Assembly: GCA_003024175.1 (NCBI GenBank)
Contig: MDYQ01000321.1
Location: forward strand, 1 to 23,499
Direction of reading: 5' to 3'
Source: Planoprotostelium fungivorum
Taxonomy: Eukaryota; Evosea; Variosea; Cavosteliida; Cavosteliaceae
Length of the DNA stretch: 23,499 nt
Shown here: positions 8,561 through 20,400 of the stretch, in pieces
Numbering within the stretch: the stretch's first letter is position 1
How the letters are laid out: the number at the start of each line of letters is the position of its first letter
Notes under the pieces: generated by a model
Database searches by the model: none
Told to the model about the DNA's origin: nothing
Seen by the model: only the letters and a program-made list of their open reading frames with translations
Translations under genes and position numbers: made by a program

Positions 8561-10133
8561 ATGTCTTTGACAACATCATGGTCTTCGCTGGAAATGGAGA
8601 GGGAGGCAGTGTTAGATTTCAATACGGAAGAGGTTCGCATCATCTCCCAAGCAACTTTGATCGTCAGTGTCTTGTCTCTATTTGGATCGAGCTTCATGCT
8701 CCACAGCTACTTCAGTTTCAGTCGAGGCAAGGGAATCACCAAAGTGAGTCTCGTTTTTCATTTCAGTTTTGCATTTCCAACAATCTTTGATGTAGAAGAT
8801 CAACTCAAGATCACAGTTGATCGCTCACTTAGCCGCGTCTGATTTTGGATGGGCTGTAGTGGGTATCATCACTGAGGTCCCACTGGTCCTTCGAAAAGAG
8901 ATGGATCCATGGTTTCAACAGACAGTCCGACATCTCTTCCAGTTATTCGCACGAACGAGCGTCGTGTGGACATGTTGCATCGCCTTCTATCTGTGCCGAT
9001 CTGTCTGTCGAACCGTAAGATATTCCAACAGTGCCGAGATCGAGAAGACGTGAGTGGGATGGATATCATCTACATCTTCAGCATATCATTGGACATCACA
9101 TCACCATCCACCGTGTGAGATCTGATGATTGACATGAATACAGACCTCTGATGGTGCCTGAAGAGAGAGAACGAAAGACGAGTAAGATATCGAATCAGAG
9201 TTGGTTGATGTTCATGATCTTCGCATGGGGCATGCCTCTCGCCATGCTCGCCGTCGAGGCAACTTCTGGTATCCTCGTACCACAAGTGACTATAGAGCCA
9301 AACAAGGTGAATCCGAATTCTTCATCTCTTACGTGTATACTTTTCATACATCATGGTAGCTGATGAGGACAGGAGAGACGATACACTGGATTATATTTTC
9401 CAACAGACGAATTTTATCTGTGGGCTTGGCTCCTTCCCATCGCTTTGGCCGGTTTATTTCAGAGTGAGACAGCTCTCCATCATCTAATCATCACCATGTC
9501 TCCCATCACACCGTCTCATCTTCGTATGATAAACACGAATCATCTACGAAGACTTATTTCGTCCATTATTTATCTGATTTCATCCAGTCATCTGCGTCAC
9601 CATCATCTTCAACAAAGTTCAAACGAGTAAGAGTGCATATCTCAACATGAGAAATAAGATGTGAGACACCACTTGACAAACTCCATCTCACCCCGCATCA
9701 GATCTGCACCCATAAAACTGAAGTTGAGAGTCTTACTCTACGTCATGGTCTTTCTTGTCTGCTGGCCTCTCAATTTTCTAACCGCTGGCCTCTACGCTTT
9801 CTGGCCACACAAGACTTACTTCGGGCTCAGTCTCGCCTTCAGTGTGTTTCTAAATTCACAAGGTGAGAACACGGACGTCCTTCCTTCTCTTACGTCTACA
9901 GGTTTCCTCAACTCGGTCGTCTATGGCTTCACGAACAAAGGTCTGAGAGACAACTACAACGGGAACCTCTGGGTGCTTCCCTTTGTCGTTGTCTTCTCTC
10001 CGTTCCTCTTGCCCTTCTCCATCGTTCTACACGCCTGTAGGAAGGTGAAGATCGAGCTACTATGACACAAGTACTCACGGTGACGCAGGTGCGACCGAAG
10101 AAGGATCCAGGAGACAGAGAGAGTGTCAATTGA
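8561..10133 (+). CDS. Seven-TM receptor of the cAMP-receptor-like (class E) type
   Basis: A G-protein-coupled receptor at the cell surface; ligand unknown. Eight exons in perfect phase (8561-8743, 8796-9049, 9144-9306, 9373-9463, 9588-9660, 9702-9862, 9902-9972, 10041-10133) give 362 residues. TM1 is IISQATLIVSVLSLFGSS; TM2 contains LIAHLAASDFGWAVVGII. TM3 is ARTSVVWTCCIAFYLCRSV, TM4 SWLMFMIFAWGMPLAML, TM5 EFYLWAWLLPIALAGLF followed by an exon-5 helix. TM6 is VLLYVMVFLVCWPLNFL, and TM7 ends with GFLNSVVYGFTNKGLR, the G-F-L-N-x-x-x-Y-G signature of cAMP/cAMP-like receptors. Splicing intron 9973-10040 gives a polar cytoplasmic tail (LWEGEDRATMTQ... DRESVN). Reading through it would give an eighth hydrophobic stretch and an earlier stop at 10062-10064. 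No N-terminal signal peptide is evident. Confidence 0.85.
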
Positions 10134-10434
10134 GCGGAGGAAAGAAAGAAAAGTATAGATGAGAGAAATAAAGAGGAATTGTTGTTGGGATGTTCTTCTC
10201 CTGGGCCCGTTGCTGGGTTACAATCCTGCGACCCACGATTGACACTATCGATGAAGAGAGGAGGAGTTCTAGAGGTAGAATCACTCGATGGAAGAGAAAT
10301 GAGGAGAGGGAGAGGTGCCTCTATTTACTCGCCCTATTTCTGGTCCAATCACTTTGACATCCGTGACAGGTCCAAGAGAAGCCTATGAATAAAACATTTC
10401 CTTTTCGCCACACACCCGAGAGAATAAAGAGAAG
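10134..10434. other. Intergenic region between GPCR and RasGEF genes
   Basis: Purine-rich sequence with AATAAA-like elements near 10165 and 10388. No supported gene on either strand. It likely holds the GPCR 3' end and the RasGEF leader. Confidence 0.5.
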
Positions 10435-12719
10435 ATGTTGGGGCGCTCCTCTTTGATGGAAACGAGAGGATCCACCTCTTCTGAATCCTCCATCCGAACA
10501 GAGTCATCTCTTTCAGCCATGGATGAGGTCAAGAAGGAAAAGGGAATCAAATGCGGTACCATGCCGGTGCTCATGGACTATCTAGTCGATCACAATACGG
10601 GTGAGACGAGATGGAGGGATAATGCATTCGCGGCGCGACGTCGCTTATGTTCATCTGACTGACTCAACGCAGATGCAAACACCGTTGACTGCTTTCTAGC
10701 TGCGTTCACTGCTTTCACCACCGCAGACGAGATCTGGTCCATCTTAGAGAGTACGAAATCTTCGGATGAAATGAGGATGGACTGACCTAACGCAGATAAA
10801 TACAGACACTATAGGTCAAACAATATCCCTCCTGGAAAAGCCAAGTGAGAGCCGCGCTCATTTTCTTTCCATCCCGAGGAGATAATCTGATACCCTTAAA
10901 GAGTCTTGGGTTTCTTGTGGGAATGGATCAATCAAGATCTTCACAGAGACTTCCTTGCCAGGGTCAAGAAATCGAGCAGTGTCTTCTTATACGACGAGCT
11001 GCTTCGTTTCATTGCCTCATTCGAAGACAAGGAAACCATCAACAAATGGAAATTACACATCTTGAAGGTACAGAGTTCATCCTCGGTCGCATCGACATCC
11101 GCTGCACTTTCCATCTCATCTGATCGAAATGCAGAGCGCAGCCGCGAGAGCTTCGAGAAAGGAGAGGAAAGTCAGACTGAGAACATCGGACAACTTGGAC
11201 ATGAACAATCTGTCTCTCTCCTCCAACTCGGGTCCCATCGGTGGATCGGCTCCCATCAGAAGACCCACGCCCAATGTTTTATCCGCTCCTCTACCAGCAC
11301 CGGTGATCCCTCCATCTCACCATCATATCATCACGTGACTCACCTCGATGCAGCCAAAGAGGATCACCATGACCCTGAGCACCACGACTTACAATCCCAT
11401 CTCACCCACCAGCAGTGGATCTCTCCTCACCGAGCCATCCATGAGTAACATATTCGGTGCCGTCGCATCGGAGAAGGTGTGACCGTCTCTTCTTCAGAGG
11501 CTGCCGTCTCGTTGTAGACTGACTCCCACTTCAGGTCTACGAGATGAACAAGGTCACTTTCGCTGACATCGAGCCCGCCGATGCCGCAAAACAATTGACT
11601 CTATTAGAGAGCGGTGAGTTTCCATCTACAACGTTGTAGATTGACACGACATAGGAATATTCCAGAAGATCAATCACACCGAATTTCACCACCTCAACTG
11701 GAAGAAAGAGGACGGAAAGAAGATTTCCCCTCACATTCTCAACCTCGTCGATCGCTTCAACACGGTGATCTACAACAAGCCACTCCCGACCTCACACCCC
11801 CTCAGGTATCCTACTGGGTCTCTACCGAGATCGTCATTCAGTCCGAATTGAAGGAGAGGGTCAACGTGCTGAGGAAATTCATCATCATCGCGGAGCATTT
11901 GAGGGACCTGGGTAACTACAACGGTGTCATGGAAATCATAGCTGGGCTCAACTCTTTCGTCATCACTCGTCTGCAGTCCACTTGGGCTGTGAGTTCATCC
12001 TCCTCCTCTTCGCATCATCTATCCATCATCTTCACATCATCTTCACATCATCTATCCATCATCTTCACATCATCTATCCATCATCTTCACATCATCTTCA
12101 CATCATCTTCGCATCATGTTGCAGGTGACTGACATTCTTAGCAAACACCACAGAGATACGTCACCTCTTTCAACGACCTCAACCAACTGATGGAGAGCCG
12201 ATCGAATTACAGAGACTACCGTCTTCACATGAGAGACAGGAAGTTACCCGTCGTGCCTTATCTCGGTGTCATTCTCAGAGATGTCCTCTTTATAGAAGGT
12301 GAACGCACCTCGAGATGATGGAGATGATGGCTGATGGAACGAAGAGGGAAACAAAAACTACGTCGGGGATTCAAAGGAGGGTATCTTCAACTTCGAAAAG
12401 ATCCAACTGCTGGGAGAAGTCTTATCGAACGTTCGTGTCCATCTCATCTTCCATCGACTCATCTTCCATCATCTTCAACTCACTGCGAACGCAGGTGCGT
12501 AGACAACAAGAAGTCGGCTACGGCTTCGAAACCATTCCCGCCTTACAGAACTACTTTAAGACTCTCATCAGCTTCCCTGAAGAGGTCCTCTACAAGCAAT
12601 CTCTCATGTGTGAACCGAATGCAGCGTCCAGCGGAAACTCACCCGCTGCTTCTTCTTCAGAGTTCAACCAGTCACCTTCTCTATCGGAGAGTCAGAGCAC
12701 AGCCTCTTCTATGTTGTAG
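10435..12719 (+). CDS. Ras/Rap guanine nucleotide exchange factor (RasGEF_N + CDC25 homology)
   Basis: Activates a Ras-family GTPase by ejecting GDP. Twelve exons join in phase to 529 residues. A Ser-rich leader is followed by the RasGEF N-terminal motif (GTMPVLMDYLVDHNT, FLAAFTAFTTADEIWSIL, then KVLGFLWEWINQDLHRDFL). A Ser/Pro linker with SAAARASRKERKVRLR leads to the catalytic domain: FADIEPADAAKQLTLLE, IFQKINHTEFHHLNWKK, RFNTVSYWVSTEIV, RVNVLRKFIIIAEHLRDLGNYNG, and IAGLNSFVITRLQSTW. It ends with PYLGVILRDVLFIEEGNKNY, INFEK-like IFNFEKIQLLGEVL, and a Ser-rich tail. These are the ordered landmarks of CDC25-homology domains. Donor 12431 (GTTCGT) is atypical. Intron 12299-12344 must use the acceptor GAAG|AGGGAA to keep phase. 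The Rap1 gene lies tail to tail 127 bp downstream. Confidence 0.9.
11989..12141 (+). repeat. Imperfect CATC-rich tandem repeat in a RasGEF intron
   Basis: The intron between exons 9 and 10 is expanded to 153 bp by imperfect units based on ATCATCTTCACATC and ATCTATCC. The ends (GCT|GTGAGT and TTCTTAG|CAAAC) still keep the frame. Confidence 0.8.
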
Positions 12720-14295: not shown

Positions 14296-17200
14296 ATGAG
14301 GTTCGCATCTCCAACTTGGTTGAGCGCCTTCGCGGTCTTCGCATGCACCTGTGCACAATCATGTACCAACCACCTGAGCAAGGGAACCACACTCGATGCT
14401 TCCTCTTCACCCACTCTGTGCTCTCCGAATGGACTGTGGAAACTGGAGGTGATTTTGAACTCCTCGAACTTGAAGCAACATGTGAATATATCCGATGCTG
14501 ATGCCACCTCAGATTACACAGGACGGCTGGCTTCAAGTTGTGAACATCATGGATGGAAAATGGAGGTGGCGTCCGGTCTATGCTAACGGTAGTTCCACTT
14601 CAAAATACATGCTCAACGTCCAAAATGGTGGGGTCTCATCTGGATTGTCAACCTGACGACCTCAGATGGGAATATTGTCTTCTATAATGATACCATAGGT
14701 AATGTCCAAAATACCCTTTGGAAGGTGGAGGGGTGCCAGAGCTCAACACCCACCACTCCATACAACCTCACGCTCACCGACCAAGGGACACTCATACAAT
14801 CGAACCAGACGCTTACCTTTTGGAGCAGTTCCATCATCACCAACATCGACACGCGAGACCTCACAACAGATGGTGGAATCGTGACACTGAATGGAGTATT
14901 TCCAACATTGAGCCTGAACTTCTCCCTGGATTCCCTCGGTTCTGGTCGTAGCTCCTTTTCTGACGATCGGAAGTCAGTGATGATCGATGTCCCTCCCGGC
15001 AGTGGTACCAATCTCACTCTCGCACTCTTTCCTACCAACCCTCACCCTCAGACGCAAGATGAAGCCTGCCAGCAGAGTCGTCTGAACTATTATCCCTTCC
15101 ATTATCCCGCCAATTTTTCCATCCTTCAAGATCCCTCTTTCACATCGATCCGAGTAGAAGGTGACGAGGAGATGATGAGATCAACTCTCTAACGGTTCGC
15201 TCAGTCATCAACGTACTGTTCAACTCCACGGTGACTCTGGAAGGAAGGAGCTGTGCTCTCCCTCTCTCGAATCAGACAGTCAACCTGAATGGAGAGGTTT
15301 TCTTTCCTGTTCCAACCAATATCATCTCTTGTGAGTTCAATATCACGTTATACAACGCAACGGGGGATCCAAAAATTTCGAGGACATTTCAATATACCAA
15401 TCCAGTAGGAATGCTGGGGGTTCTCAATGTCAGTGGGACGTCTGTGGCGCAGATCTTTGGGGCGATCGAGAGCATCGCAGTCAATGCATTGAAGACTGCC
15501 GACACGTTCCAAGTGTCTAACAGAGACGGTATCTCTCTCTATGCTGCTGTTGTCGATCAGGTGAGTGTCGCTACTTTTCCTGACGAGATTGAACGAAGAA
15601 GCAGAGAGGAAATGGAACGACAGGAAGGCTGAACGGAACAGAGACAAGCTTCTCTGTTCCTCTGTCTGTCATACAGAGCGTGTCAGGAGGAGGAGAAAAG
15701 AACACAAGAGTGACAGTGATACTGAGCAGCATCGAGCAGAACGTGTTTGGCCACACAGACAACTGGACGATGTGAGAGAGAGTTATAGACGATATATCGT
15801 GTAATGAAAGGACGAATGATGCGAAGAAGAACGACTGAACGGTCGAGCAGAGTGAGCGGGCTGGTTGGACTGAGTCTCTATATCAACAATACGTACGTTA
15901 GCGTAGATGATCAAAGTGAGCGTATATCCATCACTATATCTATACCCACCAACGCCACCATCACAAACGGTGAGATAAGAAAAGACAACTGCGATAGAGA
16001 CGAGAGAGCAGATGCCGTATGTCTGTACTGGGCAGAAGAGAGCAGAGGATGGAAGAGAGATGGGTGTGACACAGAGAGAGGACAGGGCAGCATCACATGT
16101 CTCTGCTCTCATCTCACCAATTTCACCGTTGGAATACCCAGCCAAGATAGATCCAGTCAACAGGGGCTGGGTAACAAATTATACCTGTTGGCCATCTTAG
16201 GCTTGGTCCCCATCATCATTGGTGGGTACAAACGTTGACGACCACATCACCCTGATCGTTCATATTTATGCGCCATAAATTTGAATAGAACGCTGAAGAG
16301 ATGATCAGTGATCGTCGTGACGGTGGTGATTACAAAGAGGAGACGTCGCAATCCATATTCTGATGTCATGATGCAGAACATGGTAACACAGATGTGCAGA
16401 GAGGCATAGGATGACAAAGAGACAGGACATAGAGATAGAGAAAGAGATAGGCAGAGGCAGAGAGAGCGTTGTCTATGCAGCACTGAAAGGAGGAACGACA
16501 AGAGTGGCAGTCAAGAAGAGCAGAAGAGAAGACAAGATGAGAGGGGAAGCACAGAGACTCAGAGTGAGAGAGAGGAGAGAGAAGGGAGAGATGACAAGAA
16601 GATAGGAAGTGCATCATCCAGACATCTTGATGTGTCTGGGAGTGTACAGAGAAGAAAAGATGATATGTCTGGTGATGGAGTATATGGATGGTGGCACACT
16701 CGCGGATGTGAGATTCCAACGTCTTATCCTCTCTGATGATCATAACAGGTGATAAGAGATAAAAAATTACTGGATGACGATCAGATCCAAAACATGTGAG
16801 TATCATGAAGATATTCGTCACTCATTAGCTCAGAATGAGAGAGATAGCCGCAGGCTTGAGCTATCTGCACGAGAACACAGTTGTACACGGTAGACTGTGT
16901 CCGCAGAAAGTGTATATGACATCATCACACCATGCGAAGCTGTCAGCATATGTCAGCGACACGATGGATGACATACCAGCGTATATGGAAAGATACATGG
17001 TGAGTATCCATCGAGTCTGTGAAATCTGATCATCATCAGGCACCAGAAGTGAAGACGAGTAGAAAGAGCACTACAGAAGGCGACGTGTAAGTACATGCAT
17101 TTTGTTGTCATCAATCGATTTTCGTCAGGTTTTCTTTTGGAGTTCTATTCGAAGAGGTGAAGAATCGAGGAAGGGTGAGACGATCATGAGACGCGATCGT

Positions 17201-17445
17201 TGACAACGTTCTCATCATCCATCAGGTGCAGAGGGAAAATCGAGAGATGGTCCAATTATGGAGCGATATTATTGGGGTGTGGTAAGTAGAGGCGGCACGC
17301 AACGTGATGTGCTGATGCGATCAGCATGGTGGAGAAGGTGGAAGAGAGGATCGACATGAAGAGGCTGGGTGTGATGCTGAATCCAGCTCAAGGACATCAC
17401 GTAATACTCCAATCAGATGATGAAATGGATCCTTATCAAGCTTAA
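14296..17445 (+). CDS. Receptor pseudokinase: bulb lectin, IPT/TIG, GPS, TM, TKL-like kinase
   Basis: A predicted plasma-membrane receptor. Fifteen exons, all in phase, give 793 residues. ATG 14296 (CCACC context) starts a signal peptide (LSAFAVFACTCAQS). Residues ~30-115 form a B-lectin domain (CSPNGLWKLEITQDGWLQVV; DGNIVFYNDTIG). Residues ~125-255 are IPT/TIG-like (GGIVTLNGVFP; VMIDVPPGSGTNLTL) with many N-x-S/T sites. A GAIN-like region ends in a GPS at ~461-500: CLYWAEESRGW, GC, CLCSHLTNF, with cleavage triplet H-L-T. One TM helix (~512-545) ends in KRRRR. The kinase domain starts at ~554. It has G562-x-G564, Lys583 in VAVKK, EYMDGGTLAD, then HGRLCPQ (667-673) for HRDLKPEN, SAYVSD for DFG, and intact APE and GDVFSFGVL. 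Loss of both catalytic aspartates predicts a pseudokinase. It may signal as a scaffold after lectin binding and GPS self-cleavage; this is inference. Confidence 0.82.
15502..15897 (+). repeat. 396-bp block identical to 18532-18927
   Basis: Spans the 3' part of receptor exon 4, the 116-bp intron 15561-15676, exon 5, the 79-bp intron 15772-15850 and the start of exon 6. I compared it base by base with 18532-18927 and found no difference, introns included. The flanking exon sequence is clearly diverged. Confidence 0.92.
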
Positions 17446-17759
17446 AGAAGAGAAGAAATGAAGATTATAGACCTTGCTATCCTTCTTGCATCATTTGATA
17501 ATTCATATGTTGGTGCCGCCAAATCGGCTGGATCCGCAAAATGGGTTTTGGCTTGGCACAGAATGAAAGATTGCGGCCAAATTCGACACAAGCATCGTGC
17601 ATACGTCGTTAAATAAAGCTACAGAAGGACTCGGATATGTATATATCCGGGAGACAAAGCCGCTTGATTGTGTGAAGAAGGTAGACACCAAGTGGGTCAC
17701 GTAACGGCTGGTAGTGACAATAAAAGGGATTATTCCTTTTTCACCCGCAGGTGTATGTC
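17446..17759 (+). other. Spacer between the tandem receptor copies
   Basis: Contains a 52-codon frame beginning at ATG 17458 (MKIIDLAILLASFDNSYVG), which could be the remnant of a signal-peptide exon for the second copy. The following sequence has no clear match to the first copy's lectin exons. No other gene is supported. Confidence 0.35.
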
Positions 17760-20400
17760 AGGTATTCTCAGTGATAGGAGCAACAGTAGTGACTACATTC
17801 TCTCCCACACCAACGACGGAAATCTCGTCCATCAGAACAGCTCGACCATCAGCTGGACCAGTTTCGTCATCAATCTCCCCGATTATTCCATCTCAATAGA
17901 TGAAGGGCTGCTGAATCTCACCGTCCGTACCTTTCATTCGTGTTCTAAACTGGGGCTACTTCACAAGTTCACGCTGAACGACCAGAATGTCACCATTTCC
18001 CGTACGAATAGATCATCTGTGGATTCTATGACCGTACAGCTATCCATACCATCTGGTGTGGGGCTCAATCTAAGTCTGAAGGCTTCCGCATCCTGCGACG
18101 AGGCCAACGTCCTCTTCAGTTACGCCACACCCACTGCCACCTTCCGTGTCACGCCTTTCATCATATACATCAACGGTAAATCTCTCGTACAACTCCTCTT
18201 CTCGCTGAAATACATTGTCATTCATTCGTCTCACAGGTACGAACGCGGGACCCAACTCTTCGCTGTGTTGCAAAGTGTCTTCCTCCTCCTCCATTCCCTT
18301 ATGTTATATGGTCGGGGACGTCACTCGATCGCCATCAGCATAGCATCTTACATCCCCACCTCATCGATCACATTCACCTTGATTTGGAGTGAAGTGGATG
18401 TGTTTACTCTGGCAACTGTCATTTATGTCAGTCCGATGGATGCGCTGAGAGGGGTCATCAGTACCACGCCGACAGCTCAGATCTTTGGAACGATCGAGAG
18501 CATCGTAGTCAATGCATTGAAGACACAGCCAACACGTTCCAAGTGTCTAACAGAGACGGTATCTCTCTCTATGCTGCTGTTGTCGATCAGGTGAGTGTCG
18601 CTACTTTTCCTGACGAGATTGAACGAAGAAGCAGAGAGGAAATGGAACGACAGGAAGGCTGAACGGAACAGAGACAAGCTTCTCTGTTCCTCTGTCTGTC
18701 ATACAGAGCGTGTCAGGAGGAGGAGAAAAGAACACAAGAGTGACAGTGATACTGAGCAGCATCGAGCAGAACGTGTTTGGCCACACAGACAACTGGACGA
18801 TGTGAGAGAGAGTTATAGACGATATATCGTGTAATGAAAGGACGAATGATGCGAAGAAGAACGACTGAACGGTCGAGCAGAGTGAGCGGGCTGGTTGGAC
18901 TGAGTCTCTATATCAACAATACGTACGCAAGCGTAACAGACACAAATGACCGAATCACGAACACCATACCTCTACCTGTTAATATCACGAACGGTGAGGG
19001 AGGGACGAAGAAAGAAGAACAGACAGAGATGCTGTGTGTGTACTGGGCAGAAGAGAGCAGAGGATGGAAGAGAGATGGGTGTGACACAGAGAGAGGACAG
19101 GGCAGCATCACATGTCTCTGCTCTCATCTCACAAACTTCACCATTGGAATACCGAGCCAAGAGATAACGATGGAGTCGAGAGAATGGAACAAGATGTATC
19201 TCTTTGCCGTGTTGGGCATCATCCCTATCATCCTCGATGAGTCTTCATTTTCTTCACAGTAACGTTACTGACGATGAATCAGTGATCCTTATCATCGCCC
19301 TGTCGATCAGCAAGAGGAAGCAGAAGAGTTATCTGGGTGTAGAACTGGAACTGAAAGATAACGTGAGAGATTGTGATCGCGACGAGAGAGGTTTGATATC
19401 AAGTCAGGACATAGAGATAGAGAAAGAGATAGGCAGAGGCAGAGAGAGCGACAAGAGTGGCAGTCAAGAAGAGCAGAAGAGAAGACAAGATGAGAGGGGA
19501 AGCACAGAGACTCAGAGTGAGAGAGAGGAGAGAGAAGGGAGAGATGACAAGAAGATAGGAAGTGCATCATCCAGACATCTTGATGTGTCTGGGAGTGTAC
19601 AGAGGAGAAGAGATGACGTGTCTAGTGATGGAGTATATGGATGGTGGTACACTCGCCGATGAGAGATGTCATCGATTGATATTGCTTCATATGATCATCA
19701 ATCATATCATCGACGGTCCTGATTGATCAATAGCTGATGAACAACAAAGAGATGGATGATGAGACAATACTTGGAATGTGAGAGACGAATGCGATCGCAA
19801 CAGAACAATTGACGGAAGATAGAATGAGAGAGATAGCGGTAGGCTTGAGCTATCTGCACGAGAACACAGTTGTACACGGTAGACTGTGTCCGCAGAAAGT
19901 GTATATGACATCATCACACCATGCGAAGCTGTCAGCGTACGGCAGTGACACGATGGATGACATACCAGCGTATATGGAAGGTTACATCGTGTGTGATAAT
20001 CATCATCTTTCGTTTCGTGACGTTACATCAGGCACCAGAAGTGAAACGAAGCAGAACGCTGACAACCGAAGGAGACACGTAAGTCTTCACGTCTCCTGTC
20101 TTTGTGATCTCATTCTGTACAGTTTCTCTTTCGGTGTTATCTTTCAGCGACTGGGAGAGAAGAGGAAAGGAAGAGAAGACGAACCACGAGATTGGAATGA
20201 CATCATACTCTCCTGGTGAGTCACGTCTATGTGTCGAGATCGCAGTTGAATAGTGAGATGTGAGAGAATGATGATGGAACAGCACACGAGAGAGGGCGGA
20301 GGAGAGAACGAAGATGAAAGAAGTGGGAAGGAAGCTGAGTCCACAGATGAATGCTCCTGCGATGCGTCCCGTTGGCTTAGATAATGTTTACGTTGAATAA
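17760..20400 (+). pseudogene. Damaged tandem copy of the lectin/GPS/pseudokinase receptor
   Basis: The order matches the intact copy. There is a B-lectin remnant (DYILSHTNDGNLVHQNSS, then ISWTS), an IPT-like region, GAIN/GPS (GCDTERGQGSITCLCSHL), TM pieces, and kinase ending in NVYVE. Lesions against the intact copy: a needed frame change at about 18310-18345; a 2-base gain at about 18523-18531; donor GTGAGT replaced by ATGAGT at 19237, giving an in-frame stop; a 29-base loss after 19450 removing the VVYAALKGG segment; and a lost donor at about 19660 (GATGAGAGA). The lower kinase lobe stays open through correct introns: HGRLCPQK, SAYGSD, APEVKRSR, GDTFSFGVIF. The active-site losses match the intact copy except that the DFG glycine is kept. 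The start was not found. It may be a very young pseudogene or still yield a truncated ectodomain. Confidence 0.65.
18532..18927 (+). repeat. 396-bp block identical to 15502-15897
   Basis: The partner of the block in the intact receptor gene, offset by exactly 3030 bp, with no mismatch seen across two introns and the intervening exon. Confidence 0.92.

Follow-up and report, generated by a model that had tools for sequence, protein, structure and literature searches.

A candidate single-pass GPS receptor with a predicted pseudokinase domain and an acidic-tyrosine tail belongs to a large family in Planoprotostelium fungivorum

Autoproteolysis at the GPS of GAIN domains has been studied mostly in receptors with seven membrane helices, in which the stalk released by the cut works as a tethered agonist; some animal GPS domains stay uncleaved. 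Kinase-fold receptors of other build are the plant G-type lectin (S-domain) receptor-like kinases, which combine a bulb-type lectin ectodomain, one membrane helix and a cytoplasmic kinase fold, and the animal receptor pseudokinases HER3, ROR, RYK and PTK7, some of which use tail tyrosines as docking sites. Here, we analyzed a receptor gene of Planoprotostelium fungivorum (Evosea, Variosea) lying on the forward strand of a 23,499-nucleotide stretch of contig MDYQ01000321.1 (assembly GCA_003024175.1), which as a whole is called the window below. Its predicted product joins a lectin-like and TIG-like ectodomain to a GPS, a single membrane helix and a kinase fold that has lost its catalytic residues. 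Sequence comparison places the receptor in a large family with about 150 GPS sites in the genome, in which the lectin/TIG combination is one of several ectodomain types.

The receptor resembles adhesion G protein-coupled receptors (GPCRs; GAIN/GPS followed by seven helices) and polycystin-1 in carrying a GPS with an HL/T triad just outside the membrane below a large modular ectodomain. In contrast to their seven or eleven helices, it has one helix and a pseudokinase, with a putative GAIN domain outside the GPS. It shares the threefold layout of the plant G-type lectin receptor-like kinases but differs from them by its GPS, its inactive kinase and its TIG-like regions; S-locus glycoprotein and PAN domains gave no Pfam match in the receptor protein up to an E value of 1. 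The likeness to HER3, ROR, RYK and PTK7, an inactive kinase fold with tail tyrosines, is a functional analogy, whereas those proteins have no GPS, carry other ectodomains and stem from an unrelated expansion. In Dictyostelium, rk3 of the DRK family has the order TIG-TM-TKL and is classed among the receptor kinases (PMC1420674). Both proteins have a TIG-type ectodomain, one helix and a TKL-like kinase; unlike rk3, the P. fungivorum receptor is devoid of catalytic residues, and the main text of PMC1420674 never mentions 'GPS'. In the passages of PMC12716839 that were compared, fusions of GPCRs with TKL kinases in oomycetes, amoebozoans and choanoflagellates contain a seven-helix bundle. They likewise join a receptor to a TKL-like kinase, while here a single helix follows the GPS. 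According to the same passages, GAIN and the seven-helix part were joined in stem holozoans and sit in separate genes in non-holozoans (PMC12716839). Another published source reports that amoebozoan family 2 GPCRs showed no GAIN domains. The 7tm_2 model (PF00002) was unmatched in the P. fungivorum genome and likewise in the control genome. A GPS-kinase receptor occurred in none of the published passages compared, and no description of such a family was found among the titles and abstracts retrieved from an open-licence library.

The receptor gene (14296-17445, + strand) comprises 15 exons separated by 14 introns of 38-87 nucleotides (nt), all of them GT-AG. The spliced frame of 817 residues has no internal stop, and the DNA confirms the 15 exons as one predicted gene. 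This agrees with the preliminary description, made from the DNA sequence alone, in its 15 exons sharing one frame but not in its 793 residues, since a few exon edges differ. The overall architecture proposed there, with a GPS, one transmembrane helix and a pseudokinase, stands after profile, sequence and helix analysis: along the protein follow signal peptide, bulb-lectin-like domain, TIG-like regions, GPS, membrane helix, kinase domain and a DPYQA tail (Table 1). The starts of exon 2 (14513), exon 5 (15605) and exon 6 (15851) were revised from an initial hand model because paralogues have the same residues there. That model of 782 amino acids, in which intron 1 was nine bases too long and 32 GAIN-like residues were skipped, is row 1 of profiles A1 and A2. 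A purpose-written gene finder, used with a raised intron penalty after an earlier version had over-split genes, reproduced the edges of exons 1, 3 and 4 and, for exons 5 and 6, the starts as revised; this support is partial and non-independent because the program was seeded with the introns of the hand model. It merged the receptor gene with the next gene and missed several purine-rich kinase exons, and the kinase exons were placed by hand and homology. Only Pkinase, PK_Tyr_Ser-Thr and GPS rose above cut-off in a Pfam scan of the full protein. NCBIfam gave no match to the ectodomain and kinase matches far below its cut-offs, and the plasmid collection gave no match.

Table 1. Coordinates of the receptor features and of the tandem paralogue in the window
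Feature	Position	Strand	Basis
Signal peptide MRFASPTWLSAFAVFACTCAQ, residues 1-21	14296..14358	+	Read from sequence
Bulb-type (mannose-binding) lectin-like domain, residues 23-146, exons 1-3	14362..14835	+	Six-row paralogue profile against PDB; Pfam B_lectin in 1/6 rows
Two E-set / IPT-TIG-like regions, residues about 147-320	14836..15401	+	Weak Pfam matches
Juxtamembrane GAIN-like domain ending in GPS, residues 321-522	15402..16130	+	GPS-containing profile against adhesion-GPCR chains
GPS motif; predicted cleavage CSHL/TNF between bases 16115 and 16116	16017..16130	+	PF01825
Single transmembrane helix, split by intron 16222-16308, then KRRRR	16176..16334	+	KD-19 maximum 3.3
Kinase-fold domain, residues 578-783, exons 8-15	16426..17340	+	PF00069
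C-terminal acidic-tyrosine tail DPYQA	17428..17442	+	Family-wide enrichment
Tandem paralogue, tail DNVYVE	17750..20400	+	Four near-identical blocks with receptor gene

The GPS was recognized by PF01825 both in the protein (E 5.8e-11; 43.2 bits at a cut-off of 22.5) and in the genome search (E 1.1e-9), and its cleavage triad is intact (HL/T within CSHLTNF). A profile of 12 rows that covered the juxtamembrane region with its GPS matched 23 adhesion-GPCR chains (best E 5.7e-12), and the GPS-anchored alignment spans about 160 residues of adhesion GPCR L3. Hence, the expected GPS/GAIN similarity was found for the GPS, while GAIN outside it went unrecognized, and a GAIN fold of the juxtamembrane domain is deduced from its GPS. 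Models of this domain without the GPS, built in the absence of one ectodomain type, recovered that type with E values of 4.8e-18 to 1.7e-5, although types had been set by eye and rows co-aligned beforehand. The weakest real row scored 17.4 bits and the best shuffle 8.1 bits. As the region is common to different ectodomain types, it points to one common juxtamembrane domain. The membrane helix and the KRRRR sequence after it are clear from the receptor sequence.

To place the receptor in its family, the 36.9-Mb genome was searched for PF01825. All 150 scored sites, out of 176 candidates, exceeded the curated cut-off. The gene number may be somewhat below 150 because near-duplicates exist (L076 and L081 are identical), or above it because 150 of the 176 candidates were scored. 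Identically scoring matches occurred on the contig pairs C12/C13, C185/C187 and C16/C101; they suggest duplicated or allelic contigs, by which genome counts are perhaps slightly inflated. Gene models were made for 79 modules, namely 20 chosen loci (seven of them picked for a nearby kinase match), 57 random loci and two modules in the window; 58 random loci had been drawn from 75 contigs, at most one per contig, and one was already in the set.

In the 57 random loci, where triads were read at the GPS coordinates of the genome search, HLT was found 54 times and an exon end interrupted the triad in the other three. The complete set of 79, of which 20 loci had been found with a pattern demanding H-x-T, displayed 75 HLT, one HFT and the three interruptions. 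At L034, L043 and L085 the frame after the GPS histidine runs to VS and then into non-family sequence, so that an intron probably interrupts the triad. These counts bear on the alternative that the GPS is an uncleaved structural relic. Uncleaved animal examples and the upstream GAIN region that profiles fail to recognize would fit such a relic, but a triad this constant next to cysteines that vary (e.g. CQSNHLT or CQTNHLT) makes it unlikely in our estimation.

A kinase domain follows the GPS in all modules sampled. Without hints, tblastn with the receptor kinase detected downstream exons at 16 of the 20 chosen loci (E up to 1). A kinase hidden Markov model (HMM), from which relatives more than 60% identical had been removed, matched all 79 modelled modules on the same strand after the GPS with a worst E of 5.4e-24, a result not fully independent of the gene models, which were guided by family hints; shuffled sequences reached at best 7.2 bits. 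A membrane helix is present in 78 of the 79 modules, L059 being the exception, and lysine or arginine residues are more frequent after the helix (3.4 per 10 residues) than before it (1.05). Across the modelled rows, 409-624 nt separate the GPS start from the beta3 Lys. In a tree of 77 kinase regions, from which the broken copy of the window and one short row were left out and in which 58 rows are unlabelled, the nine rows with a lectin-type ectodomain formed one branch (support 100/98). Eight of the nine owe their label to the lectin part itself and L052 to query residues 258-347 only. Ectodomain type changed once on the tree, compared to a mean of 6.6 after shuffling. The lectin-type ectodomain thus tracks one kinase clade, which supports one gene rather than two. 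Fusion in silico of two adjacent genes, one encoding a lectin/GPS membrane protein and the other a kinase, would be conceivable as the joining was read from DNA. Given the order and strand constant in 79 of 79 modules, the spacing and the concordance of ectodomain type and kinase clade, we regard such an artefact as highly improbable.

Ectodomains differ within the family. A genome search with the receptor ectodomain gave 24 candidates, of which 21 were matching pieces; these lie in the window and on ten other contigs. In a scan of ten loci, with one ectodomain exon per locus, leucine-rich repeats (LRR) were above cut-off in six. Judged by eye, the ectodomains of L023, L024 and L025 resemble beta-helices, while no Pfam model was above cut-off for any of the three. 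The combination proposed as a receptor class of its own is supported, with the correction that it is one member of the family described here and that the family has several ectodomain types.

The kinase domain of the receptor matched PF00069 (E 4.7e-31) and PF07714 (PK_Tyr_Ser-Thr; E 5.9e-30), and its best sequence match in PDB was ITK (6.3e-18). The domain is nearest to TK/TKL folds. The beta3 Lys (VAVK) is retained. In contrast to an active site, HGR stands for HRD at 16886-16894 and AYV for DFG at 16946-16954; with the loops HGRLCPQK and KLSAYVS, the HRD Asp, the catalytic Asn and the DFG Asp are all replaced. The domain is probably an inactive pseudokinase. The fold named earlier as TKL-like was thus recovered without its catalytic residues, so that any signalling through it has to be by scaffolding or allostery.

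This loss extends to most of the family. In the alignment of 79 rows, a few of them gapped, the HRD Asp was found in 8, the catalytic Asn in 22 and the DFG Asp in 15 rows, compared to 65 rows with the beta3 Lys, 69 with the alphaC Glu and 75 with the APE Glu. A full catalytic set exists in three rows (L024, L037 and L047), or four if L023 is counted, whose KLADFG on direct reading was overlooked by its gene model. All ten lectin-type rows, including the broken tandem copy, have HGR for HRD. An ordinary receptor kinase whose catalysis works in an unusual way, as known from some atypical kinases, could explain the retained Lys and Glu and the tyrosine-kinase-like loops (HTDIAARN) in several members of one clade. 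The scarcity of both catalytic Asp residues and the uniform HGR of the lectin-type rows, which is unlike an active site, leave this explanation with a low probability. The clade in question consists of L023, L024, L029, L047, L057, L058, L065 and L067, and its ectodomains are beta-helix-like where read (L023 and L024, by eye). Its members are possible active kinases of the system.

The ratio of nonsynonymous to synonymous substitutions (dN/dS) bears on a different alternative, in which the cytoplasmic part is vestigial, the kinase and tail decay and the receptors serve as adhesion or decoy molecules. Among the 60 closest pairs, 46 finite values had a median of 0.22. In the seven pairs with dS below 1 dN/dS ranged from 0.16 to 0.50, with 0.16 for L061/L062, 0.23 for L018/L076 and 0.26 for L026/L072; the window pair including the broken copy gave 0.47 and L045/L069 gave 0.50. 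The latter value, the loss of catalytic residues in nearly all rows and at least one window copy that looks broken are what a vestigial part would leave. Nevertheless, we consider decay improbable in view of the three low ratios and of the conserved tail and fold-keeping motifs. The module appears to be under purifying selection, the low ratios suggesting that an inactive domain is retained rather than decaying.

The acidic-tyrosine motif at the C-terminus is a new finding of this analysis. Counting all rows, also those without a motif, 53 of the 79 modules had a tyrosine among their last 8 residues; windows placed 20-50 residues upstream contained one in 10-12 modules, and windows placed 60-100 residues upstream in 21-27. 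In 42 modules a tyrosine of the last ten residues had an acidic residue two or three positions before it (2-10 in control windows). For the last 12 residues the number was 44, while shuffling of the last 23 residues gave 14.7 on average and at most 26. The enrichment held with one row per 50% identity cluster (33/54 against 0-4). Some tails without a tyrosine in these last 8 residues are gene-model errors and other cases may be real; L045 and L069, which are 92% identical yet have unlike C-terminal ends, are taken as a model error. Asp occupies position -2 in 27 of 61 tails. A trafficking signal (YxxPhi) or a dock independent of phosphorylation could also place a tyrosine here, and 15 of the 60 tyrosine-bearing tails do have a bulky hydrophobic residue at +3. 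However, 45 of 60 are without it, 17 of 61 stop short of this position and the Asp at -2 resembles tyrosine-kinase substrates, so that we judge this alternative rather improbable, though not negligible.

Phosphotyrosine-related domains are encoded in the same genome. SH2 domains gave 79 matches at 69 loci, the tyrosine-kinase-type catalytic loop HRDxAARN gave 70 matches (reversed pattern: 0) and the tyrosine-phosphatase domain PTP gave 43 exon matches. The complement of 69 SH2 loci and 70 tyrosine-kinase loops, DNA matches that include duplicates and are not curated genes, is large for a perhaps unicellular organism. For comparison, 48 SH2 proteins and 22 tyrosine kinases are reported for Acanthamoeba (PMC4053784) and 18 and 4, respectively, for Physarum (PMC4758236).

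On the outer side, residues 88-96 of the receptor (QNDGNIVFY; 14621-14685, split by the intron 14628-14665) fit exactly to QxDxNxVxY, which we take from the plant-lectin field to be the mannose-site motif of bulb-type (MMBL/GNA) lectins. A lectin profile of six rows, the window gene and five other genomic places picked for readable exons, matched bulb lectins and lectin-like pyocins in PDB with a whole-sequence E of 1.2e-12, in which repeat stretches are summed; the best single stretch of the top match had an E of 4.8e-4. Pfam B_lectin recognized one of the six rows (E 0.0011) and had no match in the receptor protein alone. In the whole genome it matched one place (E 0.017), above cut-off only together with a neighbouring piece, so B_lectin by itself is blind to ectodomains of this type. 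By its family profile and exact motif the domain is assigned to the bulb-type lectin fold, as the preliminary description had it, and mannose-type binding is predicted. The IPT/TIG assignment of the region after it received weak backing: Pfam TIG matched three of eight rows (best E 0.0066), Ig_TgrO1 matched a fragment of the receptor protein with an E of 0.004, below cut-off, and the whole protein with 0.11, and the region had no match to an E-set/TIG fold in PDB.

In the GPS module and kinase, the tandem paralogue downstream of the receptor gene shares four blocks with it; they measure 128-300 nt and are 94-99% identical even in their introns, while the ectodomains align at 37-56%. This patchwork of near-identical and diverged parts points to gene conversion or an exchange of the signalling half. 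As 29 nt of the kinase are missing and no signal peptide was seen, the copy is probably a pseudogene, although its DNVYVE tail looks intact. Together, these features suggest gene conversion followed by loss. Elsewhere in the window (8594-12719), an ab initio model has a hydrophobic N-terminal part followed in one frame by RasGEF (E 1.6e-45). Either a membrane receptor is fused to a RasGEF domain here, or the model has run two genes together; it matched no receptor family.

We consider it fairly probable that the gene encodes a single-pass, self-cleaving, adhesion-type receptor of a large lineage-expanded family, with a pseudokinase scaffold and a phosphotyrosine tail, where cleavage, phosphorylation and ligand are inferred from sequence. 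During maturation, the GPS module would cleave its own chain between Leu and Thr, with both pieces remaining together. The outer piece would bind glycans of prey, another cell or the matrix and be pulled or reshaped. As the receptor has a single helix in place of a seven-helix bundle, its released stalk cannot serve as the tethered agonist of a GPCR, and we propose that the signal would be an altered pairing or exposure of the receptor. The pseudokinase may act as a scaffold or may pair allosterically with an active kinase. The tail tyrosine would be phosphorylated by a tyrosine kinase of the same genome and then recruit SH2 proteins.

Several observations weigh against this model. The juxtamembrane profile without the GPS found no GAIN, hhalign of the GPS-less region to the L3 fragment failed to match, and the GAIN model PF16489 was unmatched in the genome, a weak test as the control genome was likewise unmatched. 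At four of the 20 chosen loci (L010, L011, L012 and L017) the hint-free tblastn search found no kinase exons. The lectin profile also picks beta-propellers (Tako8, 8e-5; WDR5, about 6e-4) interleaved with its weaker lectin matches, and the TIG assignment of residues about 147-320 is weak. AlphaFold2 models of single exons were unusable, with a mean predicted local distance difference test score (pLDDT) of 44.6 for 15876-16220 and 30.1 for 14668-15159. dS is saturated in most pairs and below 1 in only seven. Furthermore, 26 of the 79 modules have no tyrosine in the last 8 residues, the end of L015 depends on the model (EGSYQA in one, another end in the second), and tail phosphorylation as well as its SH2 partner are guesses.

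A single-pass receptor of this kind would make the role of GPS cleavage directly testable in a large family without a seven-helix partner. How phosphotyrosine signalling is coupled to surface recognition outside animals could likewise be tested with the tail motif and the 69 SH2 loci. More tentatively, and with less confidence than we place in the single receptor, the family may form an immune-like repertoire in a single-celled organism: some 150 germline receptors with varied ectodomains (lectin/TIG, LRR and beta-helix-like) would use one self-cleaving GPS stalk as a mechanical release switch, and their output would be the pairing of pseudokinases together with a C-terminal phosphotyrosine that a large SH2/tyrosine-kinase toolkit reads. 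If this is true, the repertoire would be made up mainly of pseudokinases, its stalk would work without a tethered-agonist pocket, and GPS autoproteolysis would have a third output besides GPCRs and polycystins.

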